In this document: positions 4,594 to 38,973 of the stretch, piece by piece | Layout of the letters: each line of letters begins with the position of its first letter | How positions within the stretch are numbered: position 1 is the first letter of the stretch | DNA from: Hyphomicrobium sp. | GTDB lineage: Bacteria > Pseudomonadota > Alphaproteobacteria > Rhizobiales > Hyphomicrobiaceae | Direction of reading: 5' to 3' | Assembly: GCA_030148725.1 (NCBI GenBank) | Contig: JASBSU010000058.1 | Location: forward strand, 1 to 42,367 | DNA: 42,367 nucleotides | Translations under genes and position numbers: made by a program | Notes under the pieces: generated by a model | Database searches by the model: none | The model's input: the letters and a program-made list of their open reading frames with translations, nothing else | Told to the model about the DNA's origin: nothing

Positions 4594-4606
4594 GGGAAAA
4601 ATTCCC
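4594..4606. promoter_or_regulatory. GGGA-N5-TCCC palindrome between divergent kinase and regulator
   Basis: The sequence reads GGGAAAAATTCCC. It lies 28 bp upstream of the kinase start on the minus strand and 60 bp upstream of the regulator start at 4667, so it could serve either gene. An exact match to the recurrent operator-like motif of this window. Autoregulation by the adjacent regulator is an inference. Confidence 0.6.
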
Positions 4607-4666
4607 TATTTTCCCGAGGAAAAAACGAGATGCTACGTTATACAATTGCTTGTAATGAGACGAGAC

Positions 4667-5284
4667 ATGAAGGTGCTTATCGTCGACGATCATCCGCTGG
4701 TTCTGTCCGGCTGCAGGGCTCTCCTTAAAGACACCGACGACATGGAAATGGTCTCGGCCGGGGATGCCGCCGCGGCTCATGACGTGTATCTGAGCGAGCG
4801 CCCCGACGTTGCGGTGATCGACATCAACTTGCCGGACGTTTCGGGGTTTGAGCTCGCGCGCCGTATCCTCTCCGACGATCCCGCCGCGCGCATCATGATG
4901 TTCTCCATGAACGATGACTCGATGTTCGCCGCACAGGCGATCGAGACGGGCGCCAAGGGCTACTTCAGCAAGACCGATCACCCGCAGGACTTCCTCGATG
5001 CCATCCGCGCGGTCTATCGCGGCGGCCACTCGCTGGCGCCAGAAATGGCCCAGAAAATCGCGTTTTTGCGCATTGGCGCGGGCGAAGGCGGCGCCGCCCT
5101 GACGCTGCGCGAGCGTGAGGTGCTGCGGCTCTTGGCCAAGGGCAAGAGCATGTCCGAGATCGCAGCGCTCATAAACGTCTCCTACAAGACAGTCGCCGTC
5201 ATCTGCGCAACTTTGCGCACGAGGTTCGGCGCGCGAACGGCCATGGAACTCATCCGCATTGCCGTCGAGCAGAAGATCGTATGA
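4667..5284 (+). CDS. LuxR/NarL-family response regulator
   Basis: A 205-residue two-domain regulator. The receiver domain (1-120) opens MKVLIVDDHP, with the acidic pair at 8-9, phosphoacceptor Asp52 in VIDINLP and Lys near KTDHP. A GerE/LuxR helix-turn-helix follows at about 143-200 (LTLREREVLRLLAKGKSM, then VSYKTVAV). ATG 4667 is chosen because it gives the canonical receiver N-terminus; in-frame ATG 4655 and TTG 4646 would add 4 or 7 residues. The partner is the divergent kinase at 3183-4565. It likely binds DNA as a phosphorylated dimer, and the palindrome at 4594-4606 is a candidate site. Confidence 0.9.
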   Translation: MKVLIVDDHPLVLSGCRALLKDTDDMEMVSAGDAAAAHDVYLSERPDVAVIDINLPDVSGFELARRILSDDPAARIMMFSMNDDSMFAAQAIETGAKGYFSKTDHPQDFLDAIRAVYRGGHSLAPEMAQKIAFLRIGAGEGGAALTLREREVLRLLAKGKSMSEIAALINVSYKTVAVICATLRTRFGARTAMELIRIAVEQKIV

Positions 5285-5413
5285 GCCGCAAACGAAGCGC
5301 CTCGAGACCCAGGTCGGGAAAATAAGGCAATTGCCACAGGACAATGTGCACTGGCGCGCACCCGCCGATCAGGGTACGCCGGACGACGTTCCCTGCCGTG
5401 AGGAGTAGACTGC

Positions 5414-6945
5414 GTGGCGCATCAGGCGTACCCGCCTACCGACGACCTAATAGAGCCGCCGCCTAACGGCACCACCGGTATTTCGGCCGATCGCCCGCCG
5501 AGCGCCTTCACCCAGCCCGTCGAAACGCTGAGAAACTATTGGTACGGCCTGCCGGTTCGCTGGCAGCTCATGATCTCCATATCGGTGATCAGCATCGGAG
5601 CAGTCCTGCTTTCCATTGTCCTCGCAGTGTTGGATGCGCGAGGCCGTGTCGAGGTCGAGGTCAACTCCTCGATGTCGGTCGCCTACCAGCTCGTGACCGA
5701 TGCGATCGCACGCTCCGACAACAAAACGTCCGGTACCAACCTCATGCAGCTCCTGCCGGAGCAGCTGACCTCCGTCCGCCACGCCCGCATCCTGGTGTCG
5801 GAGAATAACGGCGACCTCATCCAAGTCGCCCCCGACCAGCGTACGACCGACCTCGTCCATCACCCAGAATCCGCGCCCCAGTGGTTCGCCGATCTCGTCG
5901 GTCCGAGCGTCGGCACGCGCCAGATCAGGGTGATGCTGGCCAACGACCGGATCGGCTCGATCCTAATCGTCGGCGAGCCGCGCGACGAATTGGGAGAGGT
6001 GTGGGAGGAAGTTTCGCGGCGCGCCATCATCTGGCTCGCCATCACCGCGCTGATGCTCGCGTTCCTCTATTACGTGCTCGGCCGCCTCCTCAATCCTTTG
6101 GTCGAGCTGTCCGCAGGCATGCACCAGCTGGAAGACGGACACTACGGAGCGCGTGTCGCCGAGCCCCCGGTGCGGGAGCTGGGGGCAATCGCCGGCCAAT
6201 TCAACCTGCTCGCAGGAGCCCTCGAAAAAGCGCGAGACGAAAACAACCGTCTCTACCGAAGCCTCATCGCCGTGCAGGAGGATGAGCGGCGACGCATCGC
6301 CAACGACCTGCACGATGAGGCAGGCCCCTGCCTGTTCGGCATCACGGCCAACGCAGCGTCCATCGCCCGCCTGTCGATGCTCGAACCGAACGCCCAGACG
6401 GCACCGATCAAGACCCGCGTCGAAGAGATCCACACCATCACCGAGCGCCTGAAGGCGATCAATCGCGACCTCCTGCGCAACCTTCGTCCTGTCGAGATCG
6501 GCCGCATCCCGCTGACCGAGCTTATCGGCAGCCTCGTTGCTGGCTTCGAGAGACGGCACCCGGAATGCACCTTCGGGCTGTCGTTCGGCAAAGTCGCGCG
6601 CGGCTACGGCGAGGAAGCCGACATAACGATCTTCCGATGCGTGCAGGAAGGGCTGACGAACGTCATCAAGCACGCCAACGCCACCAAGGCGAAAATCGAC
6701 ATTGGCGAGCAGCCTGAAGCGGTACGTTGCGCATCCGGATCACCGACAACGGCAACGGCCTCCCCGCTAACGTGATCCTGGGTATCGGCCTCACGGCGAT
6801 GCGCGAGCGCATACGCAGCATCAACGGCTCCAGCTCAATCGAAAATGCTGAGCCAGGAACCGTCCTCACAATCGACATCCCGGCAAGACCCGAAGGCGCC
6901 GCAAGAGCGCCTCTTAACGACCAGCCCAAGGAAACCGCCACATGA
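5414..6945 (+). pseudogene. Sensor histidine kinase interrupted by a frameshift (copy A)
   Basis: GTG start with AGGAG at 5401-5405. Frame 2 encodes a proline-rich N-terminus, transmembrane segments at about 50-73 and 205-225, HAMP, HisKA_3 with His300 in NDLHDEAGPCLF and the ATPase N box (EGLTNVIKH). It then runs out at a stop at 6773-6775. The missing G1 and G2 boxes (ITDNGNG, GIGLTAMRER) continue in frame 1 from about 6727 to 6945. The intact paralogue at 27202-28635 aligns across both pieces. One lost base at about 6720-6727 explains the break. As written, the 453-residue product lacks the ATP-lid region and should not autophosphorylate. A sequencing error is possible. The frame-1 end overlaps the regulator start by ATGA. 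Confidence 0.8.
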
Positions 6946-7589
6946 AGGTTCTCGTCATCGACGACCACCCGATCGTATTCCAAGGATGCCGCAGACTTCT
7001 CGAGGGTGTTGGCGTAGACGAGATGCTGGTCGCCGACCGGCCGTCCAAGGGCTTTCGGCTCTACCGCCAAGAAAAGCCGAACATGATCATCGCCGACCTC
7101 TCGATGCAGGCGGCTTCGCTCGGAGGCCTGTCCTTCATCCGCCGCCTCCGCGCCCACGACGAGCACACACCGATCATGGTGCTCAGCATGCACTCCGACC
7201 GTATGATCGTGAGCCGCACCCTCGAAGCCGGCGCGAACGGTTACCTTCTGAAGGATTCCGCCTGGGATGAATTCATGACCGCCTTTCGCGTCGTCCGCGA
7301 AGGCGGACGCTATCTCTGCCACGAGCTGGCATCCCAGATAGCGTTCATGGAAGCGCGCGGTCAGCGCGATCCCCTGGCCCAGATGACCGACCGCGAGCGT
7401 CAGATCATCACGCTGATTGCCGCCGGCAAGCCTTACAGCGAGATCGCTGCACAGCTTCGCATCAGCTACAAGACCGTCGTCAACACGACCGCTCAGCTCA
7501 AGAGTAAGCTCGGCGCTCGCTCGCTGCCGGAGTTGATGCGGATCGCCATCGACCACCTGCCCGCCAACGGCATAAAGGCCGTGCAGTAG
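6942..7589 (+). CDS. LuxR/NarL-family response regulator (copy A)
   Basis: 215 residues. Receiver with MKVLVIDDHP, Asp52 in IIADLSMQ, and Lys in GYLLKDS; GerE helix-turn-helix at about 147-200 (MTDRERQIITLIAAGKPY, ISYKTVVNT). The ATG overlaps the kinase stop by four bases (ATGA), so it was translationally coupled to the now frameshifted kinase. It is closely similar along its length to the regulator at 28632-29279, including the unusual DLSMQ stretch with a few extra residues before GGLSFIRRL. With its own kinase damaged, it may be served by the paralogous kinase or act unphosphorylated (inference). Confidence 0.92.
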   Translation: MKVLVIDDHPIVFQGCRRLLEGVGVDEMLVADRPSKGFRLYRQEKPNMIIADLSMQAASLGGLSFIRRLRAHDEHTPIMVLSMHSDRMIVSRTLEAGANGYLLKDSAWDEFMTAFRVVREGGRYLCHELASQIAFMEARGQRDPLAQMTDRERQIITLIAAGKPYSEIAAQLRISYKTVVNTTAQLKSKLGARSLPELMRIAIDHLPANGIKAVQ

Positions 7590-7639
7590 CGCTGCACATC
7601 GGCGGCATTGGAGCCTCGTCCGCCGACCATGGAGCGATC

Positions 7640-7672
7640 AGGAAATACTCCCGCAACAAGGGAATATTCTCC
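7640..7672. promoter_or_regulatory. Two degenerate GGGA-N5-TCCC-like sites 20 bp apart
   Basis: AGGAAATACTCCC (7640-7652) and GGGAATATTCTCC (7660-7672) begin exactly 20 bp apart, close to two helical turns, upstream of the secreted Cys-rich gene at 7791. The first has one and the second two mismatches to the exact motif. The pairing and phasing make a cooperative regulator site plausible. Confidence 0.45.
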
Positions 7673-7790
7673 GGCGGCGGAAATGAACTTAGCCCTGGTC
7701 AGTCCGCCAGTTTCGCCCTTTGCATGACGTCCTAGCTTACGGCGCGTCTAGGTCCGCCGGGGCGCCTGGTCGTCGCTGACGGAGAGACCC

Positions 7791-8249
7791 GTGACGTTCA
7801 AGTCCATTGCAACCGCGCTCATCCTGCTCATCCCGGCAAGTCAGTTCGCTCACGCTGGCGACGAACAATGCCTGACGAAAAGCGAGCTTGAAGATACCGC
7901 TCGCATGAGCGCGACGATGGGATTGGGTGGTGCCTTGAAACGCTGCGGCGCGTGCCTTGGTGACCGCTATCAGGCGACCGTCGACAAGTTCGAAGGGAGC
8001 GGCATGCTGATCGACTTCCGCCGTTCGGAGGCGGCCATCCAGAGCAGCCGCGAAAAGTTCTACTATGCTGACGACCTCGTTCGCGTCGGCGCTCGCAAGT
8101 ACGCCGCTGACCTCAGCGCCGACTGCACAGCCTGTGCGGCAACCGCGGAAATCGCCAACGGCCTCGGCACCGACGAAGCGCGCGCGAAACTCTACCACGA
8201 GGAATCCGAGCGACTGAAAGCGCTCTCCGCGTTCAAGAGCTGCCCATGA
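7791..8249 (+). CDS. Secreted protein of unknown function with two CxxC motifs
   Basis: 152 residues from a GTG start preceded by GGAGAG at 7780-7785. Signal peptide 1-22 ends FAHAG. The mature part has six cysteines: one near the N-terminus, CGAC, CTAC and one at the extreme C-terminus. The CxxC pairs suggest disulfides or metal/redox chemistry, but no CxxCH haem site is present. I do not recognise the family. It stands alone on the plus strand, behind a pair of operator-like sites, and converges on the small gene at 8297-8668. A periplasmic role linked to the surrounding methanol-oxidation helpers is only suggested by position. Confidence 0.75.
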   Translation: MTFKSIATALILLIPASQFAHAGDEQCLTKSELEDTARMSATMGLGGALKRCGACLGDRYQATVDKFEGSGMLIDFRRSEAAIQSSREKFYYADDLVRVGARKYAADLSADCTACAATAEIANGLGTDEARAKLYHEESERLKALSAFKSCP

Positions 8250-8296
8250 GCCCCGCGTTCCGAGGAATCATTCGCGTTACGCGCAAATAGACCGCC

Positions 8297-8668: not shown

Positions 8669-8715
8669 CGCGATCCACCTTCAATGCTGAAATCCCAACA
8701 ATGGTGACAGCAAGC

Positions 8716-9240
8716 CTACTGCACGACCACCTTCACGCCATCGGCCGTCTTTGCTTCGCCAGCGCTCAGCTCGCCGCAGCTCTCACCAAGGTACTTGCCA
8801 TTCTGAAGGATTGTGCGCTTCACGTCTACCGGCGCACCGCCCTGAGTACGCGGAGCGTTCCCGGACACCGAGCTTTCTACCTTCACCTGGAACTCAGTCG
8901 TGAAATCCCCGCTCAGCTCGGTATGCGTCGTGACCTTGCGATCATCGTAGAAGCACAGGGCGTCGACGATCGTTCCAGCCGACGACTTGCTCACGACATA
9001 CTTCGGACAATTGGCGCGATTTTCAGCGCTGCTCATACGCACGGTATTCCGCTCCGCCTCTTCGCCAATGCACATGGTGAGTTTCTGATCGCGCTTGCCG
9101 TGCCCCTCGTCGGTCTGCGTGTTGACGTCCCACAGGCCGGCCTTACGCAACGGAAGATCGAGCTTCTCATCGGCCGCAAAAACGACAGCGCCGAACGACA
9201 TGGATAAGGCGGCAACCAGAATGGGATAGGCGAGGCGCAT
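8716..9240 (-). CDS. DUF3617-like secreted protein (copy 1)
   Basis: 174 residues with signal peptide 1-22 (VVFAADE). The family pattern is visible: LRKAGLWDVN near the start of the mature protein, a CIGEEAERN segment, conserved cysteines, a central beta-rich part (TELSGDFTTEFQVKV) and a GKYLGESCGEL end. DUF3617 proteins are periplasmic and functionally uncharacterised. It aligns along its whole length with the protein at 30613-31137 and more loosely with 29344-29784. A GGGAGCACTTCCC palindrome lies 84 bp upstream of its start. The recurrence of this family beside quinoprotein genes suggests an envelope accessory role (inference). Confidence 0.8.
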   Translation of the reverse strand: MRLAYPILVAALSMSFGAVVFAADEKLDLPLRKAGLWDVNTQTDEGHGKRDQKLTMCIGEEAERNTVRMSSAENRANCPKYVVSKSSAGTIVDALCFYDDRKVTTHTELSGDFTTEFQVKVESSVSGNAPRTQGGAPVDVKRTILQNGKYLGESCGELSAGEAKTADGVKVVVQ

Positions 9241-9324
9241 GAGAGAAGCTCCAACTGATGTGGCGCCGATCTGCTGAAAGGCGCCGTGAGCCGCAAGCTA
9301 TGTGAGCCCAATGGCAAATGGCAT

Positions 9325-9337
9325 GGGAGCACTTCCC
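9325..9337. promoter_or_regulatory. GGGA-N5-TCCC palindrome upstream of DUF3617 gene
   Basis: GGGAGCACTTCCC, an exact match to the motif, in the divergent gap between the DUF3617-like gene (start 9240, minus) and the SRPBCC gene (start 9519, plus). Confidence 0.55.
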
Positions 9338-9411
9338 GACATCGCTCAATATGTTGTGATCCCGCGCCCAACCCGTGCCGCGCGCTCGTCACACTTTTTG
9401 GAAGAACGTTG

Positions 9412-9424
9412 AGGATTTTTTCCC
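9412..9424. promoter_or_regulatory. Near-match palindrome upstream of SRPBCC gene
   Basis: AGGATTTTTTCCC, one mismatch from GGGA-N5-TCCC, 94 bp before the SRPBCC start. With the copy at 9325 it gives one site per divergent gene. Confidence 0.45.
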
Positions 9425-9518
9425 GAACCGCGTGGCGGTGATTGCTGATTCATTGCCGCGAGTGCTACGGCCGATCGCCTTAAACAACGATCCATACGAC
9501 CACCGACGAGGACGCCCT

Positions 9519-10052
9519 GTGAATCGCATCATTGCTGCCGCACTGCTCACCGCACTCCTGCCAGCATTGGCAATCGCTCACGGACCAAGCCGCAAGAAAG
9601 AGGTCACGACCATCGAGATCGACGCGCCCGCCGACAAGGTCTGGGAAATCGTCGGCAACTACGGCGACATGGGCTGGCATCCGGCAATCGCCAAAACCGA
9701 GGCAACGCCCGGCGAGCTGAAGAAGGAAGTGTCCAAGCGCAAGCTGACTTTCAAATCCGGCGCCGTATTCACCGACACCCTGACCCGCTACGAGCCGGAC
9801 AAACGCACCATCGCTTTCATGACCAATGACGAGGACCACAAGGAGTTGCCGGTCGAAGGCTATTCCTCGACGATCTCGGTGGCCGATGAGGCTGGCAAGT
9901 CCAAGGTCGAGTGGAAAGGTGCTTTCTACCGCGGCTATATGAACAACGATCCGCCGCCGGAGCTTTCCGACGAGGCGGCCATGAAGGCAGTCGCAGCGTT
10001 CCAGAAGACCGGGCTCGATGCGCTCAAGGCTAAGGCGGAAGCCGCAAAGTGA
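9519..10052 (+). CDS. MxaD-like SRPBCC/START-fold periplasmic protein
   Basis: 177 residues from GTG 9519, chosen because GAGG at 9507-9510 precedes it and a clean signal peptide (1-18, ending AIAH) follows; a longer open frame starts upstream without support. The mature part has the START/polyketide-cyclase pattern EIDAPADKVWEIVGNYGDM, WHPAIAKTEA and a C-terminal Lys/Ala-rich helix. It is paralogous to the MxaD protein at 16152-16688. MxaD is reported to aid the interaction of methanol dehydrogenase with cytochrome cL, so this copy may serve another quinoprotein (inference). It overlaps the next gene by four bases (GTGA), implying coupled translation. Confidence 0.8.
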   Translation: MNRIIAAALLTALLPALAIAHGPSRKKEVTTIEIDAPADKVWEIVGNYGDMGWHPAIAKTEATPGELKKEVSKRKLTFKSGAVFTDTLTRYEPDKRTIAFMTNDEDHKELPVEGYSSTISVADEAGKSKVEWKGAFYRGYMNNDPPPELSDEAAMKAVAAFQKTGLDALKAKAEAAK

Positions 10053-11146: not shown

Positions 11147-11159
11147 GGGATTAAATCCC
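11147..11159. promoter_or_regulatory. GGGA-N5-TCCC palindrome upstream of TonB receptor
   Basis: GGGATTAAATCCC, an exact motif copy 128 bp before the receptor start. It is flanked by a perfect 7-bp inverted repeat (GTGGCAA 11122-11128, TTGCCAC 11164-11170), so the whole 49-bp segment is symmetric. Confidence 0.55.
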
Positions 11160-11287: not shown

Positions 11288-13708
11288 ATGCGTTTTGCGT
11301 ATGTGTCCGCCGCTTCAGCGGCGGCGATTTTGTCCGTTATCGCGTCTTCCGCGACGGCTCAAGAGCCTCCGACGCCGGCACCGCAAACTGATCAGTTGCC
11401 GCCTGTCGAGGTCATCCAGAAACAGCCGACTGCAGCGCCAGCCGCCAAGAAGAAATCAGCGGCGAAGAAAAAGTCAGTATCTCCGGCGCCTCAGCCTCCG
11501 GCGCCTGCTGCCGCCCCAGCGGAGGTCGCTCGCGACGCAAACGGGAACGTCGTCTCGAACACCGCACCGATTACCTCGCCCGTCAATGGCGAGAACCTTC
11601 TGCCCTCCAATCTGGACGGCTTCAGCAGCGCCGCGTCGCGTGTCACGCAGGCGACGATCGACGAGCAGCGTCCTGTCGATACGCACGAGGCGTTCCGGAC
11701 AATACCTGGCGTCGTCGTTACCGGTGATGACGGCTATGCCCGCCACATCGGCATCGGAATGCGCGGATCGCCTTTCCGCCGCGGCCGCAAGGTCCTCATC
11801 ATGGAGGACGGCCAGTCGATCAACATGGCGAGCTATATCGATCCCTCGACGCACTACACACCGCCGCTTGACCGTGTCGAAAGCATTGAGGTTCTGCGCG
11901 GAACGATCATCTCACATGGCCCACTGAACAATCACGGTGTCGTCAACTTCCGCAACCTCAGCCCATTCGGGGCGGAAGAGACGGTCATCTCGGCCTCGAT
12001 CGGCACAACGGAGCACAGCAACAAGGAGTTGAATAACACACGTCACTTCCACACCCGCCAGCACGCCGGAAACGTCGGCGCCGTATTCTCGTATACGGGA
12101 TCTGAAGCGGCCGGCGCGTGGGACAACGAGGTGCTGCGCTTCAACGACTTCTACGGCGCATTGGGTTGGAAGGGCGTCGATCAAGATCTTACTCTGTCGG
12201 CGACCTACTTTCGGCAGCGCGACAACTACGACGAGGCAAACCTCGAGCTAGAAGACGAGGACGCCCTCAGCGCTATCGGCTTTAACAGCGCGGACGACTA
12301 CTTCTACAGCCTCAAGCACTGCCGGACTTGCTACAATCCCGGTTCCAGCTTCAATACGTACAGCGCCGACGTTGTGCTGCTCCAAGGCACGCACAACTAC
12401 TACCTCGACAAAGACACGACGATTACGTCGCGCCTCTTTGGCATGTACCACAAGCGCGACCGGTACGAGAACGAGATCGAGATCGAGGATCCCGGCGACA
12501 TTCCGGGTGCCATGCCTGGAGATGGCAGCGGCGATTTCGAAATGGAAGGTCGTCGGCGCACGTATCGCCAGTGGGGCGCCGAGGTGCGCGGCGAATGGGC
12601 CAACCGCCCATTCATCGGCGGCATGACGCAGGATATCCAGGCCGGTATCCGCTATCAGAACCAGTCGTTTGCCAACCGCAACTTCCTGGGTGAGGAAGAC
12701 GTCGTCTACGGCTGGGGCGACGAGACCGGCGACGAGCCCCTCCTTGACGAGCGCTATACCTCTCACTCCGTCGCTGCGTTCATGCAGACGGCAATCCACG
12801 TTGCGAAGGATTTCGCTGTTGTTCCGGGTGTCCGCTTCGAGACTTACGACGTCGAGCGCGTGACCACCGTGAACGACGACCGCGGCATTGCACTCGGCGA
12901 CCCCGTCGTCCGCGAGTACGTCGACCACGCGCTGGTCCTTCCAGGAATCGCGTTCAGCTACACTGGCCTGTATAAGTCGACGGTGTTTGGCGGATACCAC
13001 CGGGGACACACACCGCATGTCGGCCGCGGCGAGTTCTTCCCGCTGCCAGCAGAAATCGGCGATAACTTCCAGGTCGGCATTCGCTCGAAGGCTTTCACAG
13101 GGCTAACCTTTGAAGGCAGCCTGTTCCACAGCCGTATCGAAAATTACCAGATCAAAGAAGCCTTCACGAGCCCGGCCGGCAACAACGTATTCGGCAACGT
13201 CAAAGAGGTGGAGATCAACGGCTTTGAGCTCTATTCGAGGCTCGACAGCCAGCCGTTCACCGGCGGATACCTGAACTTCTTCGGTGAAGCCACTTACACG
13301 TACACCGAGTCGGACATCGCAAACGGTGTCGATATCGACGAGGACTCTGGCGACGTGACGGTCGTCAATGGCAACCGTCTGCCCGAAGTTCCCCGCCACT
13401 TCGCTTATCTGACAGTGGGCGTGCAGGAGCGCGGGTTGTGGGATGCCAGCGTGTCGTGGAGCTACCGCGGAGACTTCTACACAGACGTCCTCAATACACG
13501 CCTCGACGGCGAGGGTGAGGTCGGTCTCGTGCCCGACGTATGGCTCCTGTCGGCGCGCGCCAACTATCACATCCCTGGCACCGGGGCGACACTCTGGGTG
13601 TCGGGCAACAACCTCACTGACGAGTACTACATCACCGACCGTGAGGATGGTGTGAAGCCCGGCATCGGCCGAAGCTACTGGGCAGGGTTCAAGATGAAGC
13701 TGCAGTAA
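11288..13708 (+). CDS. TonB-dependent outer-membrane receptor
   Basis: 806 residues. Signal peptide 1-24 (ending SATAQ). PPVEV at about 38-42 is a likely TonB box, followed by a Lys/Ala/Pro-rich linker of some 40 residues. The plug domain is at about 90-225 (RGSPFRRGRKVLIMEDG, ESIEVLRGTI), and a roughly 580-residue beta-barrel runs to the end. Extracellular parts contain strongly acidic stretches and one CxxC. The best Shine-Dalgarno match is GGAG 11276-11279. In a cluster with lanthanide-type dehydrogenases, a receptor for a metal chelate is attractive, but substrate cannot be read from sequence. The gene stands alone between a structured leader and a strong terminator. Confidence 0.9.
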   Translation: MRFAYVSAASAAAILSVIASSATAQEPPTPAPQTDQLPPVEVIQKQPTAAPAAKKKSAAKKKSVSPAPQPPAPAAAPAEVARDANGNVVSNTAPITSPVNGENLLPSNLDGFSSAASRVTQATIDEQRPVDTHEAFRTIPGVVVTGDDGYARHIGIGMRGSPFRRGRKVLIMEDGQSINMASYIDPSTHYTPPLDRVESIEVLRGTIISHGPLNNHGVVNFRNLSPFGAEETVISASIGTTEHSNKELNNTRHFHTRQHAGNVGAVFSYTGSEAAGAWDNEVLRFNDFYGALGWKGVDQDLTLSATYFRQRDNYDEANLELEDEDALSAIGFNSADDYFYSLKHCRTCYNPGSSFNTYSADVVLLQGTHNYYLDKDTTITSRLFGMYHKRDRYENEIEIEDPGDIPGAMPGDGSGDFEMEGRRRTYRQWGAEVRGEWANRPFIGGMTQDIQAGIRYQNQSFANRNFLGEEDVVYGWGDETGDEPLLDERYTSHSVAAFMQTAIHVAKDFAVVPGVRFETYDVERVTTVNDDRGIALGDPVVREYVDHALVLPGIAFSYTGLYKSTVFGGYHRGHTPHVGRGEFFPLPAEIGDNFQVGIRSKAFTGLTFEGSLFHSRIENYQIKEAFTSPAGNNVFGNVKEVEINGFELYSRLDSQPFTGGYLNFFGEATYTYTESDIANGVDIDEDSGDVTVVNGNRLPEVPRHFAYLTVGVQERGLWDASVSWSYRGDFYTDVLNTRLDGEGEVGLVPDVWLLSARANYHIPGTGATLWVSGNNLTDEYYITDREDGVKPGIGRSYWAGFKMKLQ

Positions 13709-14550: not shown

Positions 14551-14563
14551 GGGAAAAACTCCC
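14551..14563. promoter_or_regulatory. GGGA-N5-TCCC palindrome upstream of SoxYZ-like gene
   Basis: GGGAAAAACTCCC, extended to 15 bp by flanking C and G, starts ten bases after the previous stop codon and 53 bp before the ATG. This places a promoter in a short gap that otherwise looks operonic. Confidence 0.6.
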
Positions 14564-14616
14564 GCGACAATGCGTCAAAACAAGCGCAGAAATTGATCCT
14601 CTCGGAGGATCGCGCC

Positions 14617-15435
14617 ATGCGCATGTCAAAGCTGCTTTCTGTGTCCGCGGGACTAGCGCTCGCTTTGCTCGTGGCTTCCCTACCGACACGCGCAGCCGAT
14701 GACCCGTGGCCGGACATCTACAAGGGCGTATTCGACGACCGCCCGATCATCGAAAGCGATGGCGCCGTTACTCTCTACGTTCCCGAGCAGGCCGAAGACG
14801 CCGCGCTGGTTCCGGTCGCGATCCACATGTCGCCGGCCATTGCCAATACCGCCAAGTCGCTGACCATCGTTATCGACCGCAACCCAGCGCCTGTTGCCGC
14901 GACGTTCCGCTTCGGCGAAGCATTTGCAGCCTCGCCTGACATCGGCGAGCGCAAGCTCCAGACGCGCGTCCGCGTCGACAGCTTCTCCAACATCCGCGCC
15001 ATCCTAGAAACTGCCGACGGCAAGCTTCACATGGCGAAGAAGTTCGTCCGGGGCGCCGGCGGCTGCTCGGCCCCCGCCTCGAAGGATGCTGACGAAGCCA
15101 TCGCCAATCTCGGCAAGATGCAGGTCAAGACGGCGACCAGCGAAGCGCACGGGCCGCGCTGGCGCGAAGGCGTCATCATGATCCGCCATCCGAACTTCAC
15201 CGGCATGCAGATGGATCTCGAAACGCGTGGCTACACGCCGGCGCGCTATATCGACCTGTTGGAAGTCACCCGCGGCGGCACCCTGCTGCTGCGCATGGAA
15301 GGTGGAATATCCATCTCCGAGAACCCTAACCTGCGGTTCACCTACGATGGGGGCGATGGCGATCAGCTGGAGGTCCGCGCCACGGACAGCAACGACACCA
15401 AGTTCGCTGGAAAGTCTCTTCCGAACGGCTCTTGA
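14617..15435 (+). CDS. Quinoprotein dehydrogenase-associated SoxYZ-like fused carrier
   Basis: 272 residues from ATG 14617 with GGAGG at 14604-14608. Signal peptide 1-27. The N-terminal half is SoxY-like (WPDIYKGVFDDRPI near the start, Ig-like strands) and ends in RGAGGC with Cys150, the equivalent of the SoxY swinging-arm cysteine. The C-terminal half, from about 170, is SoxZ-like (IMIRHPNFTGMQMD, LRFTYDG). This is the family called quinoprotein dehydrogenase-associated SoxYZ-like carrier (TIGR04557). It is found beside PQQ dehydrogenases rather than thiosulfate-oxidation genes, and no other sox gene is present here. What is carried on the cysteine is unknown. It converges on the vWA gene 15 bp away. 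Confidence 0.85.
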   Translation: MRMSKLLSVSAGLALALLVASLPTRAADDPWPDIYKGVFDDRPIIESDGAVTLYVPEQAEDAALVPVAIHMSPAIANTAKSLTIVIDRNPAPVAATFRFGEAFAASPDIGERKLQTRVRVDSFSNIRAILETADGKLHMAKKFVRGAGGCSAPASKDADEAIANLGKMQVKTATSEAHGPRWREGVIMIRHPNFTGMQMDLETRGYTPARYIDLLEVTRGGTLLLRMEGGISISENPNLRFTYDGGDGDQLEVRATDSNDTKFAGKSLPNGS

Positions 15436-16149: not shown

Positions 16150-16151
16150 GA

Positions 16152-26241: not shown

Positions 26242-26638
26242 CAACAAACCCTCGCGGTTTCGCTCCCAGATGAAAGCGGGTTGCCTGCCGCGGCCGATGT
26301 ACCGCAGAGCGCGGTCAGCCACGACAATTCCGCCTTCGTTAGTTGCAGCCATGCGGGCATTGAGCGCCCGGCTGCGCGGGATAAGAGCCCTTTGGTCGGT
26401 CTGCGGACCGATCAGAAAAGCTGGCTCATCCGGGCTCGAAGCTAGAACGTCGCAGGTGGCGGGGTCTTTAGGCTCAGTTCCAAGATCGAGACGGAACAGG
26501 TGGCAACCATTTGGCATCGAGTTGCCCTCGCTGAGCTCAAACAAGCGAGGTTAAATCTCACAGCGTCTCGAAATACGCCCGCTGCAATAGCAACGAGTGG
26601 ATCTCACCCGCTGTACGCGCCGGGAGGAAATGGCATCG
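26242..26638. other. Divergent intergenic region upstream of mxaF
   Basis: 397 bp between mxaF (minus) and a lipoprotein gene (plus). It must contain the mxaF promoter and probably that of the plus-strand genes, but I cannot place a -35/-10 pair with confidence. It has no exact GGGA-N5-TCCC copy, only a one-mismatch GGGATAAGAGCCC at 26378-26390. Open frames through it lack leaders or family features. The mxaF end carries a hairpin shared with the xoxF leader. Confidence 0.6.
26246..26260 (-). promoter_or_regulatory. GNRA-type hairpin over the mxaF ribosome-binding site
   Basis: Minus strand AAACC-GCGA-GGGTTT: a 5-bp stem with a GCGA loop and one bulged G, directly before the start codon and containing the GAGGG ribosome-binding bases. 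A near-identical element of about 21 bases occurs in the xoxF leader at 38773-38794. Confidence 0.45.
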
Positions 26639-27201: not shown

Positions 27202-28635
27202 TTGCGAACCGACCTGCACCGCCGCTGGCGAGCCCAATCGGTTCGCCGCCAGCTGATGATCTCCATATCGACGATCAGTATCTCGGCAATCCTGCTGTCG
27301 ATGGCGCTCGCCATTGTTGACGCTCGCGGGCGCGTGGAGGTCGAAGTGAACGCTGCCGTCGAGCTGGCCCAGCAGCTCGTGCGCGACATGGTCAAGCATC
27401 TGTCCTCGCCGGAAGCGCTCCAGGAGCTGTTCGCATCGACCCCGGAGCAGTTGAAGTACGTCCGCCATGCTCGGATTCTGGCGACCAATTCCCAAGGTGA
27501 CCTCGTTCAGATCGCACCCGACGACCGCGCCAAACAGCAACTCGACGGACCTAGAGAGGAAGTCCCGAGCTGGTTTAGGAAGCTCGCTGCGCCAAAGCAG
27601 ACCATACGCGAAATGCGTCTTGTTCCCAATGCAGCAACCATCATGATCGTCAGCGACCCTCGCGACGAGCTTGGCGAAGTCTGGGAAGAAGTCTCCCGAC
27701 GCGCCGTGATCTGGCTCGCCATCACGATTCTCATGCTCGCGCTGCTCTATGTCGTGCTGGGCCGTCTCCTCAACCCACTGGTTGGTCTCGCCAGCGGAAT
27801 GCACGAGCTGGAGGACGGGCGCTACAGCACGCGAGTCCCCGAACCGCCGATGCGCGAGCTGGCTGCCATCGCCAGACGGTTCAACACGCTCGCCGGAGCA
27901 CTGGAGAAGGCACGGCAGGATAACACGCGCCTTTACCGCCATCTCATCGCTGTCCAGGAGGACGAGCGCCGGCAGGTCGCCAACGAGCTCCACGACGAAG
28001 CAGGCCCCTGCCTTTTCGGAATCACCGCGAACGTCGGCTCGATAGATCGGCTCGCCGAACGCCTTCCCGAGGAGCAAGCGGCCCAGATAAAGAACCGGTC
28101 TGCCGAAATTCTGAGCATCGCCGAACGCCTCAAGACCATAAACCGAGACCTGCTGCGCCGCCTTCGGCCCGTCGAGATCGGCCGCATCCCCCTGCAGGAG
28201 CTGGTTGGCAGCCTGTTGGCTGGTTTTGAACGCCGGCATCAGGAAGTGGCGTTCAGGCTTGCCACTGGTTCCCTTGCCGCGGGGTACGGAGAAGCCGTAG
28301 ACCTAACGTTATTTCGTTGCGTCCAGGAGGCGCTAACCAATGCTATGCAGCATGGGGGCGCCACCCGCGTCGAAGTCGAAATCCACGAGGAACAGGCAAT
28401 CGGATCCGGCAAATACGTTCGCCTGAGGGTTCGTGACAACGGCTCGGGCTTCTCAAGTGGAACGCCCAGCGGAATCGGACTGACGGCGATGCGAGAGCGT
28501 GTTCGCGCAATCAACGGAACGAGCGAAATCGAAAGCTCGTCTGCCGGCACGACGATCTCGGTTTCTGTTCCGATCCCCGACAGGCTCTCCCTGCCTCGGC
28601 CAGCCTACGATACGTCCAAAGGTGTCACCGAATGA
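27202..28635 (+). CDS. NarL-type sensor histidine kinase (copy B, intact)
   Basis: 477 residues from TTG 27202; no ATG or GTG is available in frame and the ribosome site is weak. Transmembrane segments about 19-39 and 168-188, periplasmic domain between, HAMP about 189-241, HisKA_3 with His264 in NELHDEAGPCLF. The ATPase has N box EALTNAMQH (Asn380), G1 DNGSG (412-416) and G2 GIGL (424-427). It aligns throughout with the frameshifted kinase at 5414-6945, including the conserved Cys in the H-box region. It is translationally coupled (ATGA) to its regulator. Because it is next to mxaF, a role in controlling mxa or xox expression, as for MxaY/FlhS-type kinases, is plausible. Confidence 0.9.
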   Translation: MRTDLHRRWRAQSVRRQLMISISTISISAILLSMALAIVDARGRVEVEVNAAVELAQQLVRDMVKHLSSPEALQELFASTPEQLKYVRHARILATNSQGDLVQIAPDDRAKQQLDGPREEVPSWFRKLAAPKQTIREMRLVPNAATIMIVSDPRDELGEVWEEVSRRAVIWLAITILMLALLYVVLGRLLNPLVGLASGMHELEDGRYSTRVPEPPMRELAAIARRFNTLAGALEKARQDNTRLYRHLIAVQEDERRQVANELHDEAGPCLFGITANVGSIDRLAERLPEEQAAQIKNRSAEILSIAERLKTINRDLLRRLRPVEIGRIPLQELVGSLLAGFERRHQEVAFRLATGSLAAGYGEAVDLTLFRCVQEALTNAMQHGGATRVEVEIHEEQAIGSGKYVRLRVRDNGSGFSSGTPSGIGLTAMRERVRAINGTSEIESSSAGTTISVSVPIPDRLSLPRPAYDTSKGVTE

Positions 28636-29279
28636 AAGTTCTCGTCATCGACGATCATCCGATCGTCATTCAGGGGTGCCGCCGCCTCCTCGAGGATATG
28701 GGCGTCGAGGAAATCCTCGTCGCCTCGAGCTTGTCTGAAGGCTTCCGCATCTACCGCCAGAAACGCCCCGACATGATCATCGTCGATCTGTCGATGCAGT
28801 CGGGCGCTCTCGGCGGTCTTTCCTTCATCCGCCGCTTGCGCATCCACGACGAGAGCACGCCCGTCCTCGTGCTCAGCATGCATTCCGACCGCATGATCGT
28901 CAGCCGTGCGTTGGAAGTCGGCGCCAATGGCTATCTGCTGAAAGACACTTCCTCAGAAGAGTTCGCCAAGGCGTTCAAGCGCGTTCGTGATGGGCAGCCC
29001 TACCTCAATCACGAGCTGGCTTCGGAAATCGCCTTCCGCGAGGCCCGCGGCGACAGCAATCCCTTGAGCCGTATGTCGTTGCGCGAGCTGCAGACGCTGT
29101 CTTTGATCGCCGAAGGCAAGCCCTATATCGCAATCGCCGAAGAGCTGCACGTCAGCTACAAGACGGTCGTGAACACGAGCGCACAGCTGAAGGTGAAGCT
29201 CGGCGTGCGCACCTTGCCGGAGCTGATGCGCATCGCGATCCAGCACCTGCCGAGCAACGCAGGCAAGCCCGGCTTCTGA
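28632..29279 (+). CDS. LuxR/NarL-family response regulator (copy B)
   Basis: 215 residues. Receiver MKVLVIDDHP, Asp52 in IIVDLSMQ and Lys in GYLLKDT. GerE helix-turn-helix at about 147-200 (MSLRELQTLSLIAEGKPY, VSYKTVVNT). The recognition-helix region YKTVVNTxAQLK is the same as in copy A and similar to the 4667-5284 regulator (YKTVAVICATLR), so the three may read related operators. Four-base overlap with the kinase and a strong terminator behind it define a two-gene unit, perhaps with the lipoprotein gene. Confidence 0.93.
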   Translation: MKVLVIDDHPIVIQGCRRLLEDMGVEEILVASSLSEGFRIYRQKRPDMIIVDLSMQSGALGGLSFIRRLRIHDESTPVLVLSMHSDRMIVSRALEVGANGYLLKDTSSEEFAKAFKRVRDGQPYLNHELASEIAFREARGDSNPLSRMSLRELQTLSLIAEGKPYIAIAEELHVSYKTVVNTSAQLKVKLGVRTLPELMRIAIQHLPSNAGKPGF

Positions 29280-29885: not shown

Positions 29886-29898
29886 GGGATTTTTTCCC
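29886..29898. promoter_or_regulatory. GGGA-N5-TCCC palindrome in divergent gap
   Basis: GGGATTTTTTCCC, an exact copy, lies between the DUF3617-like gene (start 29784, minus) and the small secreted gene (start 30046, plus). The same gap has further small inverted repeats (for example TTTGC/GCAAA near 29970-29985). Confidence 0.55.
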
Positions 29899-30045
29899 GA
29901 CGCCAGTCATTGGACATGCGGGAGCGGACGGAGGGCAACATTTCCAGTCCCAATTGCCATCTGTGGCAGTTTGCTCGTGCAAAAGTGGCAAACATCGGCG
30001 TAGTCTGAGCGAAGTCGCTGTTGATCACTTCTTGCGGAGGTGACC

Positions 30046-30471
30046 GTGCATCGCTTCGTCAAGCTACCTGTTCGCTACGCGCAGAGCGCATTAAAGCTCT
30101 CGCTCGCCGTTTCTGTTCTCGCAGTGGGTCTCGCCTCCGGCAGATCGAACGCCGATCCGGCTCCTGCTCCTGAACGCGTCCGCGGCTTCTTCTGCAATGC
30201 CAAAAGTCACTCGATCGACTTCCTGCGCGAACAAGCGGCCGGAGAGAACGAGGAGATCGCAGCCAACGCCGTGAACAAGCGGCTGAAAGCCTTCTCCTGC
30301 GCCTATTATCTGCCCGCGAACGCCATCTACACCGGCGAACACACGGTGATCCAGGACGGCTTGGTCTACAAGCTCCACAGCTACCTGTTCCTGCCGGAGC
30401 GGGTTGAGCGGTGGAGCGGATCGACCATTGGCTCGCTGCAGCCCTCGCCCAGCGCCAAGCACGACGTCTGA
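30046..30471 (+). CDS. Small secreted protein of unknown function
   Basis: 141 residues from GTG 30046, with GGAGG at 30036-30040 five bases upstream; an in-frame GTG at 30040 overlaps that site. Signal peptide to about residue 37 (SGRSNADP). The mature part has two cysteines (RGFFCNAKSH, AFSCAYYLP) and the region EEIAANAVNKRL. No family is recognised. It is followed by a hairpin and then by a DUF3617 gene with its own palindrome, so it is probably monocistronic. Confidence 0.72.
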   Translation: MHRFVKLPVRYAQSALKLSLAVSVLAVGLASGRSNADPAPAPERVRGFFCNAKSHSIDFLREQAAGENEEIAANAVNKRLKAFSCAYYLPANAIYTGEHTVIQDGLVYKLHSYLFLPERVERWSGSTIGSLQPSPSAKHDV

Positions 30472-30551: not shown

Positions 30552-30564
30552 GGGAATAACTCCC
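30552..30564. promoter_or_regulatory. GGGA-N5-TCCC palindrome upstream of DUF3617 gene
   Basis: GGGAATAACTCCC, an exact copy 48 bp before ATG 30613 (63 bp before ATG 30628), a spacing like that in front of the SoxYZ-like gene. Confidence 0.6.
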
Positions 30565-30612: not shown

Positions 30613-31137
30613 ATGGGACATTGCCGAATGCTGCGCACTTCACTCATCGCTGCCGCCATCTTCGCCGTCGGCTGCACCACCACGATCGCCCACGCAAATG
30701 AGGTCGCGCTACCTCTGCGCAAGGCCGGCAAGTGGGAGCAGAAGACCGTCATGGACGAGGGCGGCAAGAAGCACGAGCAGACGCTCACGATCTGCATCGA
30801 CACGGAAATGGAGCGCAACACCGCGCTCGCCAGCGCCGCCGAACACAAAACGCGGTGCTCCAAGTACGACGTCAAGCAGGACGGCGAGAATTTCGTCATC
30901 GAAGCGACGTGCAATATGAACCACCGCGACGTCGAGAGCCGCACCGAGATGAGCGGCGACTTCCAGAAAACCTTCAACGTGAAAATCACCTCGACGACGT
31001 CCGGCGTGCAAGACTCCCAATCGATCGCCATCCCGCGCGTGATCGAGCAGCACGGCACCTACGTCAGCGAGTCCTGCGGTGATCTGAAAGCCGGCGAAGC
31101 GATGGGCACCGACGGCACCCGCGTGATGGTTCAGTAA
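30613..31137 (+). CDS. DUF3617-like secreted protein (copy 3)
   Basis: 174 residues from ATG 30613; ATG 30628 (MLRTSLIAAA) gives a cleaner signal peptide and may be the true start. Signal region ends TIAHAN. The mature part LRKAGKWEQKTVMDEGG, CIDTEMERNTALASAAEHK, RTEMSGDFQKTF and GTYVSESCGDLKAGEA aligns along its length with copy 1 at 8716-9240. Periplasmic, uncharacterised. It is the only gene between its palindrome and a strong terminator, so it is a single-gene unit. The pairing of close paralogues 22 kb apart parallels the duplicated kinase-regulator units. Confidence 0.8.
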   Translation: MGHCRMLRTSLIAAAIFAVGCTTTIAHANEVALPLRKAGKWEQKTVMDEGGKKHEQTLTICIDTEMERNTALASAAEHKTRCSKYDVKQDGENFVIEATCNMNHRDVESRTEMSGDFQKTFNVKITSTTSGVQDSQSIAIPRVIEQHGTYVSESCGDLKAGEAMGTDGTRVMVQ

Positions 31138-33456: not shown

Positions 33457-33499
33457 TTTTCTTGTAAGCCAGCCCCGGTACGCCGCGTCAACTCACAGG

Positions 33500-33533
33500 T
33501 TCGCGCGCGGCCCACCGAGAGGCCGCGCGCGAA
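33500..33533 (-). terminator. Long GC hairpin after the xoxF-operon cytochrome
   Basis: A perfect 13-bp stem (33500-33512 with 33521-33533) with an 8-nt loop, six bases past the cytochrome stop. No T-run. It probably sets the message level between the cytochrome and the downstream binding protein. Confidence 0.55.
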
Positions 33534-33539
33534 AGCCGA

Positions 33540-34094: not shown

Positions 34095-34123
34095 AGAGAT
34101 TCCCTGTTCTGTTTCCCCAAGGT

Positions 34124-36690: not shown

Positions 36691-36764
36691 GACTATGGCT
36701 CACCTGGCATGAACGACCCGAACGCAAAAAAGCGCCGGGTCGATGACGATTTGCAGGGAAAGAA

Positions 36765-36794
36765 GTGCGCCCGGCGATCTCTCGCCGGACGCAC
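36765..36794 (-). terminator. Hairpin after xoxF
   Basis: A 13-position stem with a single mismatch (36782-36794 with 36765-36777) and a 4-nt loop, 20 bases past the xoxF stop. On the minus strand TTCTTTCCC follows, so it may terminate part of the transcripts and leave xoxF more abundant than the genes behind it. Confidence 0.6.
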
Positions 36795-36814
36795 CATGCG
36801 TTGGGAGCCTAGGC

Positions 36815-38707
36815 TCAATCGTAGACCCGGAAGGTGAACAGCGTGCCAGCCTGCGGGATCTTGTCGAGGTTCGCAGCCTTGGTCATCGCCGTGGCACCGA
36901 TCGCACCGAACTTGTCGTTGAGATCGAGACCTGCCGTCACCGGCACACCGATCCAGCCGCCGATGCCGGCGAGGATCGAAACGTACTGCTTACCCTTCAC
37001 CTTGTAGGAGATTGGGTTGCCGATGATGCCCGAGGCGAGCTTGCGGTGCCACAGCACCTTGCCCGACTTGCGGTCGACCGCGCGGAAGTCACCACCCAGC
37101 GAGCCGTAGAACACGAGGCCGCCATCGGTGACCATGGTGCCACCCCAGTTCGGATACGGATCCGGGATTTCCCAATCGGCCTTGCCGGTGAGCACGTCGA
37201 ACTTCTTCACCTTGCCAGTCGTGCCGGGCTTCTCGGGGAACATGTACACGTTGGCGAACACGTAAACCGTGCCCTGCTGCGTGTGCGTGCGCTCCTGAGG
37301 CTCAAGTTCCATGCACCAGTTGTTGGTGGGGCAATAGAACTTGTTCGGCTCGGCCGGATCGACGGCGCAAGGCTGCTGGTCCTTGCCGCCCATTGCAGAA
37401 GGGCAAGTCGCAACGTTGCGGCCAACCTCGAGCGGAGAGTGCTCGCGCACCTTCACTGGACGACCGGTCTTAAGGTCGATCTTCTCGGCCCAATCCGTCG
37501 TCACGTACTTGTTGGCGCGCAGCAGCGTGCCGTCCGCACGATCAAGGACGTAAGCGAAGCCGTTACGGTCGAAGTGCACGAGGGCCTTGTGGTCCTTGCC
37601 GTCCACCTTCATGTCGACGAGGATGTTCTCGTTGACGCCGTCATAGTCCCACTGGTCGAACGGGGTCATCTGGTAAGCCCAGACAGCCTCGCCGGTGTCG
37701 ACTTTGCGAGCGAAGATCGTCATCGACCACTTGTTGTCGAACTCACCCGTGTTGCACTCCTCGTGCGTCTTGTCCGGGCAGCGATACTGCGGGCTCCACA
37801 GACCAGGATTACCCGTCGAGTAGTAGACGAGCTTCAGGTCGGGATCGTAGCTGTACCAGCCCCAAGCCGCACCGCCGCCGATCTTCCAATCTTCGCCGGG
37901 GAACGTCTTGATGCCGAGGTCGGTGCCGGCCACGCCGTAATGCGGATTGGCTTTGTTCGTGTCCTTGCTCAGGCACACGTCCTTGTCCGAACCCGTCGAG
38001 TGGCAGCTCCACACCATCTTGCCATCGGCAAGATTGTAGGCCGTCACGCGGCCGCGGGCCGCGAACTCGTCGCCGCCGAAGCCGATGATGACGAGGTTCT
38101 CGGCGATGAGCGGAGCCGACGTGATGGTCTCGCCGTGCTCAGGATAGGCGTGCTTGACGACCCAAGCCTCTTTGCCCGTCTGGGCATCGAGAGCGATGAC
38201 GTAACCGTCGAGCGTGCCGTAAACCAGCTTGCCGTCAGCGTAGGAAGCACCGCGATTGACGGTGTCGCAGCAGGCGCGCGGCACTGCGGACTCGTCGCGA
38301 TCGTCCTTCTTCACGTAGTTCCAGATCTGCTTCGGATTATCCGGATCCGACAGATCAAGACCCTGCGCAATGTTGCACTGAGCCATGTTCGGGCAGCCCG
38401 AGATGAAGAACATCATCGGCTTGCCGCCAACGTCCTCGATGAAGAGAGGCTGGCCTTCGTGACCGCGCAGCGCGCCGGTCGACTGCGACCAGGCCATCTG
38501 CAGCTTACCCACGTTGTCCGTGTTGATGTCCTTCAACGGGCTGTGGCGGGTCAGCTTGTTGTCACGGCCGGGAGCCGGCCATGTGTCTGGGTTCTGCGAT
38601 CTCTTCTCGATTTCCTCGTTGGCCATGCCGGGACCGGCAAAACCTAGTAGGGCAGCGGCCAGAATTCCGCTTACAAGGCGGACGGCCCCTTTCCTTCTCG
38701 TGTGCAT
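36815..38707 (-). CDS. xoxF: XoxF, lanthanide-dependent PQQ methanol dehydrogenase
   Basis: 630 residues from ATG 38707 with GGAGGA seven bases upstream; the open frame continues to 38776 but lacks a better start. Signal peptide about 1-28 (GPGMANE). Quinoprotein propeller with vicinal Cys in RACCDTVNRG. The active site is DQWDYDG, with catalytic Asp354 and Asp356 two residues on, the extra lanthanide-binding Asp diagnostic of XoxF. Additional cysteines (CPNMAQC, RCPDKTHEEC) and WYSYDPDLKLVYYSTGNPG distinguish it from the XoxF5 type; the clade is uncertain (XoxF1 or XoxF3-like). It oxidises methanol in the periplasm. First gene of a six-gene operon, with a long structured leader. Confidence 0.94.
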   Translation of the reverse strand: MHTRRKGAVRLVSGILAAALLGFAGPGMANEEIEKRSQNPDTWPAPGRDNKLTRHSPLKDINTDNVGKLQMAWSQSTGALRGHEGQPLFIEDVGGKPMMFFISGCPNMAQCNIAQGLDLSDPDNPKQIWNYVKKDDRDESAVPRACCDTVNRGASYADGKLVYGTLDGYVIALDAQTGKEAWVVKHAYPEHGETITSAPLIAENLVIIGFGGDEFAARGRVTAYNLADGKMVWSCHSTGSDKDVCLSKDTNKANPHYGVAGTDLGIKTFPGEDWKIGGGAAWGWYSYDPDLKLVYYSTGNPGLWSPQYRCPDKTHEECNTGEFDNKWSMTIFARKVDTGEAVWAYQMTPFDQWDYDGVNENILVDMKVDGKDHKALVHFDRNGFAYVLDRADGTLLRANKYVTTDWAEKIDLKTGRPVKVREHSPLEVGRNVATCPSAMGGKDQQPCAVDPAEPNKFYCPTNNWCMELEPQERTHTQQGTVYVFANVYMFPEKPGTTGKVKKFDVLTGKADWEIPDPYPNWGGTMVTDGGLVFYGSLGGDFRAVDRKSGKVLWHRKLASGIIGNPISYKVKGKQYVSILAGIGGWIGVPVTAGLDLNDKFGAIGATAMTKAANLDKIPQAGTLFTFRVYD

Positions 38708-38745
38708 TGCGCTTCCTCCGTATCCACGCTCTCGCGCTTCCCGAT

Positions 38746-38821
38746 GAGCAGCTGCAAGCAACAGTCCCCCGTGCACAAACCTCGCGGTTTGCGCTCATAG
38801 GTCTGGTCTTTTCAGCTGCTC
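38746..38821 (-). promoter_or_regulatory. Structured xoxF leader with GNRA hairpin
   Basis: On the minus strand a perfect 9-bp outer helix pairs 38813-38821 with 38746-38754. It encloses a 9-bp hairpin at 38773-38794 (one G-U pair) capped by GCGA, a GNRA tetraloop. The hairpin nearly matches the one over the mxaF ribosome site. The bases after it (GCACGGGGGA) also occur just before the TonB receptor start. Possible cis-acting RNA element; ligand or binding protein unknown. Confidence 0.45.
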
Positions 38822-38960
38822 CACCCCCAGCCGCATGCCCGTAGACTGCGACTTGAAAAGAATGCGGTGGCCCGTGTGACGAGTTCGAACACACACGCGG
38901 CCATACCCGCTCAGGTAGCGCGGCACGCCAACATTAGGTGCCGTTTTTGCCCGGAGATAG

Positions 38961-38973
38961 GGGATGAGTTCCC
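38961..38973. promoter_or_regulatory. GGGA-N5-TCCC palindrome upstream of xoxF
   Basis: GGGATGAGTTCCC, an exact copy 253 bp before the xoxF ATG. The distance fits a promoter that produces the structured leader. Confidence 0.55.

Follow-up and report, generated by a model that had tools for sequence, protein, structure and literature searches.

The DNA analysed here is the whole of contig JASBSU010000058.1 of Hyphomicrobium sp. (42,367 nucleotides; contig C38, hereafter the window), one of the 61 contigs of a 3.84-Mb genome, and the element in question is the palindrome GGGA-N5-TCCC, exact copies of which stand upstream of xoxF and of several other genes of this contig. From sequence comparisons with related genomes we consider it probable that in Hyphomicrobium and related genera this palindrome, more fully written CGGGAAWWWTTCCCG, serves a lanthanide/XoxF regulon as its operator, and that it is read by a NarL-type response regulator, designated RR-C, encoded on another contig of the same genome. 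The regulon would cover lanthanide-dependent methanol oxidation together with lanthanide handling. No description of a GGGA-N5-TCCC operator was found in the open-licence literature; as far as that literature goes, the predicted operator is new, though of a known kind, and the word undescribed, which an earlier note made from the letters of this DNA alone had used for it, holds within those bounds. In what follows G000 denotes the source genome, the other G numbers denote genomes of the family, and C20, C22, C27, and C60 are further contigs of G000.

The palindrome in the window and before orthologous genes

The seven exact copies that the earlier note had placed between genes were all recovered (Table 1), and the window contains no others. 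Gene calls were made with a purpose-built simple codon-bias caller, which assigned a coding fraction of 0.879 and thus left about 12% of the window non-coding; since that caller places 7/7 copies between genes, no within-gene copy was overlooked there. The same window subjected to 100 dinucleotide shuffles yielded a mean of 0.58 copies and a maximum of 3, none of the shuffles attaining seven. When the window was scored with a weight matrix built from 64 sites of other genomes, the top nine scores were all intergenic and corresponded to the seven exact copies plus the one-mismatch copies at 9412 and 7640. With respect to position, we wish to specify that the copy at 14551 sits within the 51 bp that separate two genes of the same direction and that the copies at 9325 and 4594 lie between divergent genes; single copies such as that at 9325 could be the product of chance.

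Over the whole genome GGGA-N5-TCCC occurred at 48 places, versus 31 for the reversed pattern that served as the genome-wide control, and 7 of those 48 fell within the window, which comprises 1.1% of the genome. Of the 41 places outside, 19 were intergenic and 22 were in called genes, as the background predicts; the earlier note had named an equal density inside genes as grounds for refuting its regulon, and copies inside genes do occur elsewhere in the genome. The bare word is therefore mostly background—at some 31 chance copies per genome—but is clustered in the window. The stricter search word GGGAANNNTTCCC surpassed its control in G000 (9 versus 2), G011 (12 versus 2), G003 (6 versus 3), G008 (5 versus 1), and a few others, whereas its totals over G000 and 29 relatives were 77 versus 86 for the control, so that most genomes have no general excess. 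Counts of the bare word were accordingly rejected as proof of a regulon, and orthologous promoters were tested instead. An initial look at other genomes gave 52 exact copies, of which 37 were intergenic, and a recognised neighbour stood beside 21 of these 37; one such neighbour, at locus L098, is a chemotaxis-type receiver and was left out of the regulator counts.

The promoter test covered 79 family genomes, an exact GGGA-N5-TCCC being sought at most 800 bp upstream of each gene, with 55 other palindromes of identical layout as controls. The loci scanned were 30 of 33 matches for XoxF, 30 of 46 for the TonB receptor TonB22a, 30 of 47 for a metallohydrolase, 30 of 72 for the SoxYZ-like carrier, and all of the 18 matches for MxaF. 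The site preceded xoxF in 21/30 loci, from 15 genomes and 6 genera (control mean 0.73, best 4), and TonB22a in 20/30, from 20 genomes and 10 genera (control mean 0.85, best 3); one TonB22a copy, with a G/C-rich centre (G083), may be there by chance. The metallohydrolase possessed the site in 8/30 loci (control mean 0.58, best 5) and SoxYZ in 6/30 (control mean 1.15, best 6), while MxaF had it in 0/18 (control mean 0.42, best 3). By comparison with the control palindromes, the result is thus clear for XoxF and TonB22a and modest for the metallohydrolase. In the 800 bp after the genes the site was present at 1 XoxF and 4 TonB22a loci, and at none for the metallohydrolase, SoxYZ, and MxaF; a second receptor, with a site of its own, often follows TonB22a. 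The conservation upstream of orthologues by which the earlier note had proposed to judge its regulon was therefore found.

The difference in site presence between XoxF and MxaF (Fisher p 6.6e-7, uncorrected for common descent) supports a further suggestion of that note, namely that the word, no exact copy of which precedes mxaF, perhaps separates xox from mxa control. At the metal site, D-Y-D was present in 30/30 XoxF loci, whereas Ala replaced the second Asp in 18/18 MxaF loci; inasmuch as we take that second Asp to be the hallmark of lanthanide enzymes, the site-bearing set is of the lanthanide type and the site-free set of the calcium type.

Predicted targets outside the window and the layout of the promoters

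Some of the intergenic copies outside the window, on three contigs, precede genes that fit the predicted regulon, the neighbours of the others having no known link. On C22, two tandem TonB receptors are preceded by two identical GGGAATTATTCCC copies 22 bp apart and by a third copy; on C60, a copy lies about 99 bp before the lanmodulin gene lanM (NF053806, 170.1 bits, cut-off 135); and on C27, a copy precedes a quinoprotein-relay zinc metallohydrolase (TIGR04559, 409.4 bits, cut-off 280). The periplasmic quinoprotein support that the earlier note had proposed as the function of the set stands as an idea, though it can be sharpened to lanthanide-dependent methanol oxidation and the handling of lanthanides, much of which—lanM, the TonB receptors, the metallohydrolase—is encoded outside the window.

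Conservation extends to some of the individual targets. The copy upstream of xoxF occupies the same place in G003 and G006, and that before SoxYZ is kept in G003, at -56. No exact copy stands before RR1 in G003 and G006, the nearest genomes. For DUF3617b, the homologues in G011 and G016 carry sites and that in G003 a one-mismatch copy; homologues of the small secreted proteins sec30040 and sec13915 carry sites in G011, and in G003 the interval corresponding to 29.9 kb of the window contains both lanM and sec30040, along with a weaker, one-mismatch site. Around these genes in G003 and G006 (159 kb in all), 9/9 matrix hits scoring at least 9 were intergenic, some of these sites having trained the matrix. 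An exact site upstream of lanM was found in G000, in G062 (two copies), and in Methylocella silvestris TVC (at -120). A whole regulon in Methylocella silvestris was considered and rejected: GGGAWNNNWTCCC occurred 15 times versus 0 for the control, but 9 of those 15 were in called genes. Likewise, the copies downstream of lanM at five Bradyrhizobium loci fall within the TonB gene and were taken as a coding coincidence.

Sites are often paired 22 bp apart. Among 69 exact sites a partner lay at -22 in 14 and at +22 in 9 (next commonest offset, 5 cases). At the XoxF sites a TANNGT or TAATTT box starts 37 bases after the start of the site in 12 of 21, and GAAAGT is at that position in 4 of 21, both counted by eye; from that spacing the centre of the xoxF site would be some 43 bp upstream of the putative transcription start, the place of a class II activator. 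The TonB22a promoters differ, in that many have a second conserved element between the sites and a TTGACC-like box; this element (L224–L251), which reads roughly GATGC and then CACA some 8 bases further, is perhaps the site of another factor. The mxaF promoters of five genomes of the same genus contain conserved blocks of their own and no GGGA-N5-TCCC; these blocks (window, about 26352–26600; L194–L197) are GTTGCCAC, CTTGGAA, CCTAAAGAC, and TCTAGCTT, and may constitute the site of the NarL-type regulators RR3 and RR2.

The candidate reader and the competing explanations

According to the mechanism that we propose, each palindrome would be bound by a dimer of a NarL-type response regulator, and at paired sites two dimers would sit on the same DNA face, separated by two helical turns; at xoxF, the bound dimers would activate RNA polymerase from the site centred near -43. 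The regulator would be RR-C, phosphorylated by the neighbouring kinase HK-C in response to a periplasmic state linked to lanthanides or methanol; RR1 and its kinase HK1 may share the site, and mxa would be run separately, probably by RR3 or RR2.

RR-C is a third type of regulator, encoded on C20 with a kinase of its own. Receiver and GerE helix-turn-helix domains are present in RR1 and RR3 (Pfam) and in RR-C (Response_reg, 93 bits; GerE, 38.2 bits), while the scores of RR1, RR3, and RR-C lie below the cut-offs both for MctR (NF052445: 138.4, 128.2, and 135.2 bits, cut-off 300) and for ErdR (NF041830: 56.3, 64.2, and, for RR-C, 60.2 bits, cut-off 390). HK-C has HAMP, HisKA_3, and HATPase_c domains, and its periplasmic part resembles the LapD/MoxY domains (23.6 bits in G000 and 30.5 in G062, cut-off 25). 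RR-C adjoins xoxF, with sites in between, in G016, G050, G055, G066, and G090; in G062 it is part of a single run that also contains lanM and xoxF; and in G053 it lies beside a TonB22b gene. Sites also directly precede HK-C in G050 and G041. Among the 20 genomes with a TonB22a site, the RR-C type is present in 17, the RR3 type in 10, and the RR1 type in 7, a comparison that is uneven because the RR1 type was sought at E 1e-40 with at least 42% identity, the RR3 type at E 1e-50, and RR-C at E 1e-25 in 12 genomes picked for the absence of RR1 matches. Of the 11 matches used from that 12-genome search, 10 had E values of 8e-69 or lower, and G011, the eleventh genome, lies outside the 20. G040 and G083, both with a TonB22a site, have an unclassed relative. 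One copy of the palindrome (C20:24131; L015:1501) separates RR-C from a truncated-haemoglobin-type gene, the two genes converging on it, and another is in the equivalent place in G006 (C6:15118; L346:2019), which is an odd location for an activator site.

The three homologous regulators of the window, which the earlier note had favoured as binders, fare unequally. RR1 is a possible reader, and genes of its type are often near xoxF in several relatives. RR2 and RR3 are disfavoured as main readers, in that the RR3 type tracks mxaF, which has no site: matches were present in 19/79 genomes, including 18/18 of those with MxaF (the odd one, G046, being 83% complete), whereas G050 and G057 possess xoxF with a site but no RR3-type match. 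RR-C with its kinase would be the first candidate, and RR1 the second. In addition, at five Bradyrhizobium loci (L058–L062) a NarL-type regulator lies between lanM and the adjacent TonB22-like receptor gene, an arrangement that is likely a lanthanide cassette; in two metagenome-assembled genomes lanM follows an RR1-like gene. At L045 lanM adjoins a TonB22-like receptor gene.

Several observations weigh against an operator read by RR-C. The orthologous loci share descent, so that the site counts at their promoters are not independent; 9/30 XoxF and 10/30 TonB22a loci have no exact site, and several of the site-less loci are in genomes with the RR-C or RR1 types (e.g., G016, G062, G073, and G089). 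The SoxYZ count (6) is no higher than that of the best control (6), and the metallohydrolase count (8) only modestly exceeds its own (5), so that the SoxYZ case rests on the quality and place of the site and not on number. Of 25 named lanM loci only that of Methylocella silvestris TVC has an exact upstream site, and in that species lanM is the sole recognised target. G001 and G002 retain RR1, RR3, and RR-C without an excess of the word (1 versus 4 and 0 versus 3 for the control); in those two genomes XoxF and TonB22a had no match at the thresholds used, and the metallohydrolase and SoxYZ loci had no site. In G044, which has a TonB22a site, RR-C was not matched at E 1e-25. The GGGAANNNTTCCC totals given above also count against the proposal. 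Finally, sites occur in the flanks of 7/17 RR1, 17/40 RR-C, and 9/27 RR3/RR2 loci, which distribution does not single out RR-C.

Those flanking densities, similar around all three regulator types, would also suit an operator with the same targets whose main reader is RR1 or which is shared by the sisters RR1, RR-C, and RR2/RR3, as would a recognition helix of the [SAC]YKT[VI] type common to the RR1, RR2, RR3, and RR-C types in 55 of 57 loci aligned, the position of the best-scoring window site 73 bp before RR1, and the RR1-type genes near xoxF. Yet the counts among the 20 TonB22a-site genomes (unequal search depths notwithstanding) and the occurrence of the RR3 type along with mxaF, which has no site, render that alternative unlikely. 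Less likely again is a reader unrelated to the NarL type, such as a one-component repressor that senses a metal or a substrate. Metalloregulators often control TonB receptors and metal-binding proteins, a LysR gene adjoins lanM in G000 and G006, and the link from site to regulator is indirect; but NarL-type regulator genes stand beside xoxF, lanM, or TonB22-type genes in many relatives, and tandem sites two helical turns apart, along with a site near -43, would suit an activating response regulator.

A role for the palindrome as an RNA hairpin or terminator, in place of one as a DNA site, appears highly improbable: a stem of 4–5 bp could form, and the copies between convergent gene ends described above would fit a terminator, but only GGGA-N5-TCCC is enriched and not the 55 palindromes of the same layout that could pair equally well, the window has no Rfam match, and most copies precede genes. 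For the set of seven, a chance cluster is refuted. The roughly 31 chance copies per genome and the 22 of 41 outside copies in genes would be in keeping with chance, but not the shuffles, nor the intergenic location of all seven, nor the conservation of the word upstream of orthologues.

We would go further only tentatively, to the possibility—which we hold to be real but short of probable—that a single two-component family, HK-C/RR-C together with the sister RR1, acts as master lanthanide regulator in Hyphomicrobium and its kin, with CGGGAAWWWTTCCCG as its operator. In that case CGGGAAWWWTTCCCG would join the uptake of lanthanides, their storage by lanM, and their use by xoxF, would hold the xox and mxa arms of the switch separate, and would make lanthanide gene sets readable from genomes.

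Known systems and neighbouring genes

MoxYX (MxaYX) of Paracoccus denitrificans is a kinase/regulator pair for methanol and formaldehyde genes. FlhSR of the same species is likewise such a pair (PMC8879981), and the LapD_MoxY_N-like domains in kinases of the present genome constitute a likeness to both systems. Binding by FlhR has, however, been reported at the mxa and mau promoters (PMC8879981), whereas the present site was absent at all 18 MxaF loci, where a regulon of the FlhR/MoxX kind would have a site at the mxa promoter; the accessible part of that source gives no FlhR consensus with which the palindrome might be compared.

In Pseudomonas putida, the histidine kinase PedS2 and the LuxR-type regulator PedR2 set the choice between lanthanide- and calcium-dependent pyrroloquinoline-quinone alcohol dehydrogenases (PMC6115532). 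PedR2 switches pedE on and contributes to the repression of pedH, whereas here it is the lanthanide gene, and not the calcium gene, that has the site; the main text of that source contains neither "motif" nor "binding site". Two-component control of xoxF versus mxaF is a theme shared with MxaY/MxaB, MxbDM, and MxcQE of methylotrophs, for which the accessible parts of PMC11845868 and PMC9291206 give no DNA site; 8 Methylobacterium-type and other distant lanM loci are mostly without the word. The lut cluster and lanM of Methylorubrum/Methylobacterium comprise the same classes of target—a TonB uptake receptor, lanmodulin, and XoxF (PMC10848612)—but the assignment of TonB22a and TonB22b as putative lanthanide receptors comes from the site and the lanM neighbours. 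In Methylocella silvestris BL2, LanM and the xoxF5 promoter rise with lanthanum; the increases reported with lanthanides are 39- and 26-fold for LanM and 10-fold for the xoxF5 promoter (PMC9291206).

How lanthanides are sensed and how xoxF and lanM are switched on is an open question in methylotrophy. The conserved word offers a bait for the regulator, which makes the question of rare-earth sensing testable, and it predicts further lanthanide-linked genes, among them small secreted proteins, DUF3617 proteins, and TonB receptors; a promoter part for rare-earth sensing or recovery is also on offer.

Table 1. Predicted operator copies and nearby genes of the window, in window coordinates.
Feature	Position	Strand	Remarks
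Operator copy	4594..4606		Exact; between divergent HK1 and RR1, 73 bp before RR1; matrix score 24.1, the best of the window
Operator-like copy, one mismatch	7640..7652		Intergenic; matrix score 11.8; upstream of small secreted gene 7791-8249
Operator copy	9325..9337		Exact; matrix score 16.3; between divergent DUF3617 (8716-9240, -) and SRPBCC (9375 or 9519-10052, +) genes
Operator-like copy, one mismatch	9412..9424		Matrix score 13.2; upstream of SRPBCC gene if the start is 9519 (called start)
Operator copy	11147..11159		Exact; matrix score 19.3; upstream of TonB receptor 11288-13708
Operator copy	14551..14563		Exact; 42 bp upstream of quinoprotein-associated SoxYZ-like carrier gene
Operator copy	29886..29898		Exact; matrix score 22.7; upstream of small secreted gene 30040-30471
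Operator copy	30552..30564		Exact; upstream of DUF3617 gene 30613/30628-31137
Operator copy	38961..38973		Exact; 254 bp upstream of the likely xoxF ATG, 38707 (start inferred from sequence)
HK1, HisKA_3 histidine kinase	3183..4565	-	Divergent from RR1; Pfam
RR1, NarL-type response regulator	4667..5284	+	Pfam Response_reg and GerE on 4646-5284
RR2, NarL-type response regulator of the RR3 type	6942..7589	+	70% identical to RR3
DUF3617 protein	8716..9240	-	Possible target; Pfam 36.6 bits, cut-off 24.5
SRPBCC/Polyketide_cyc2 protein	9375..10052	+	Possible target; Pfam
TonB-dependent receptor	11288..13708	+	Predicted target; Pfam TonB_dep_Rec_b-barrel and Plug
Quinoprotein-associated SoxYZ-like carrier	14593..15435	+	Predicted target; TIGR04557 246.4 bits, cut-off 140
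mxaF	24355..26352	-	Contrast gene without site; TIGR03075
RR3, NarL-type response regulator	28632..29279	+	Pfam
Small secreted protein (sec30040)	30040..30471	+	Possible target; no family match; G011 homologue with upstream site
DUF3617 protein (DUF3617b)	30613..31137	+	Predicted target; Pfam 44.6 bits, cut-off 24.5
xoxF	36815..38707	-	Predicted target; TIGR03075 565.7 bits, cut-off 480.05

Among the genes of the window, RR3 is one that we take to be MoxX-like. Upstream of RR2, the open reading frame of a MoxY-like kinase (5414-6775, +) stops short of the HATPase_c domain, of which a weak remainder (19.6 bits, below the cut-off) follows in another frame at 6727-6945; the break is either a frameshift or a sequencing error. 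The contig itself begins within a gene (1-208), which, from the order XoxF, Ank1, YncE1, HK1 in G003 and G006, is probably the end of a second XoxF. The two DUF3617 proteins accompany both the quinoprotein genes and the operator, and may have a role in periplasmic methanol oxidation.

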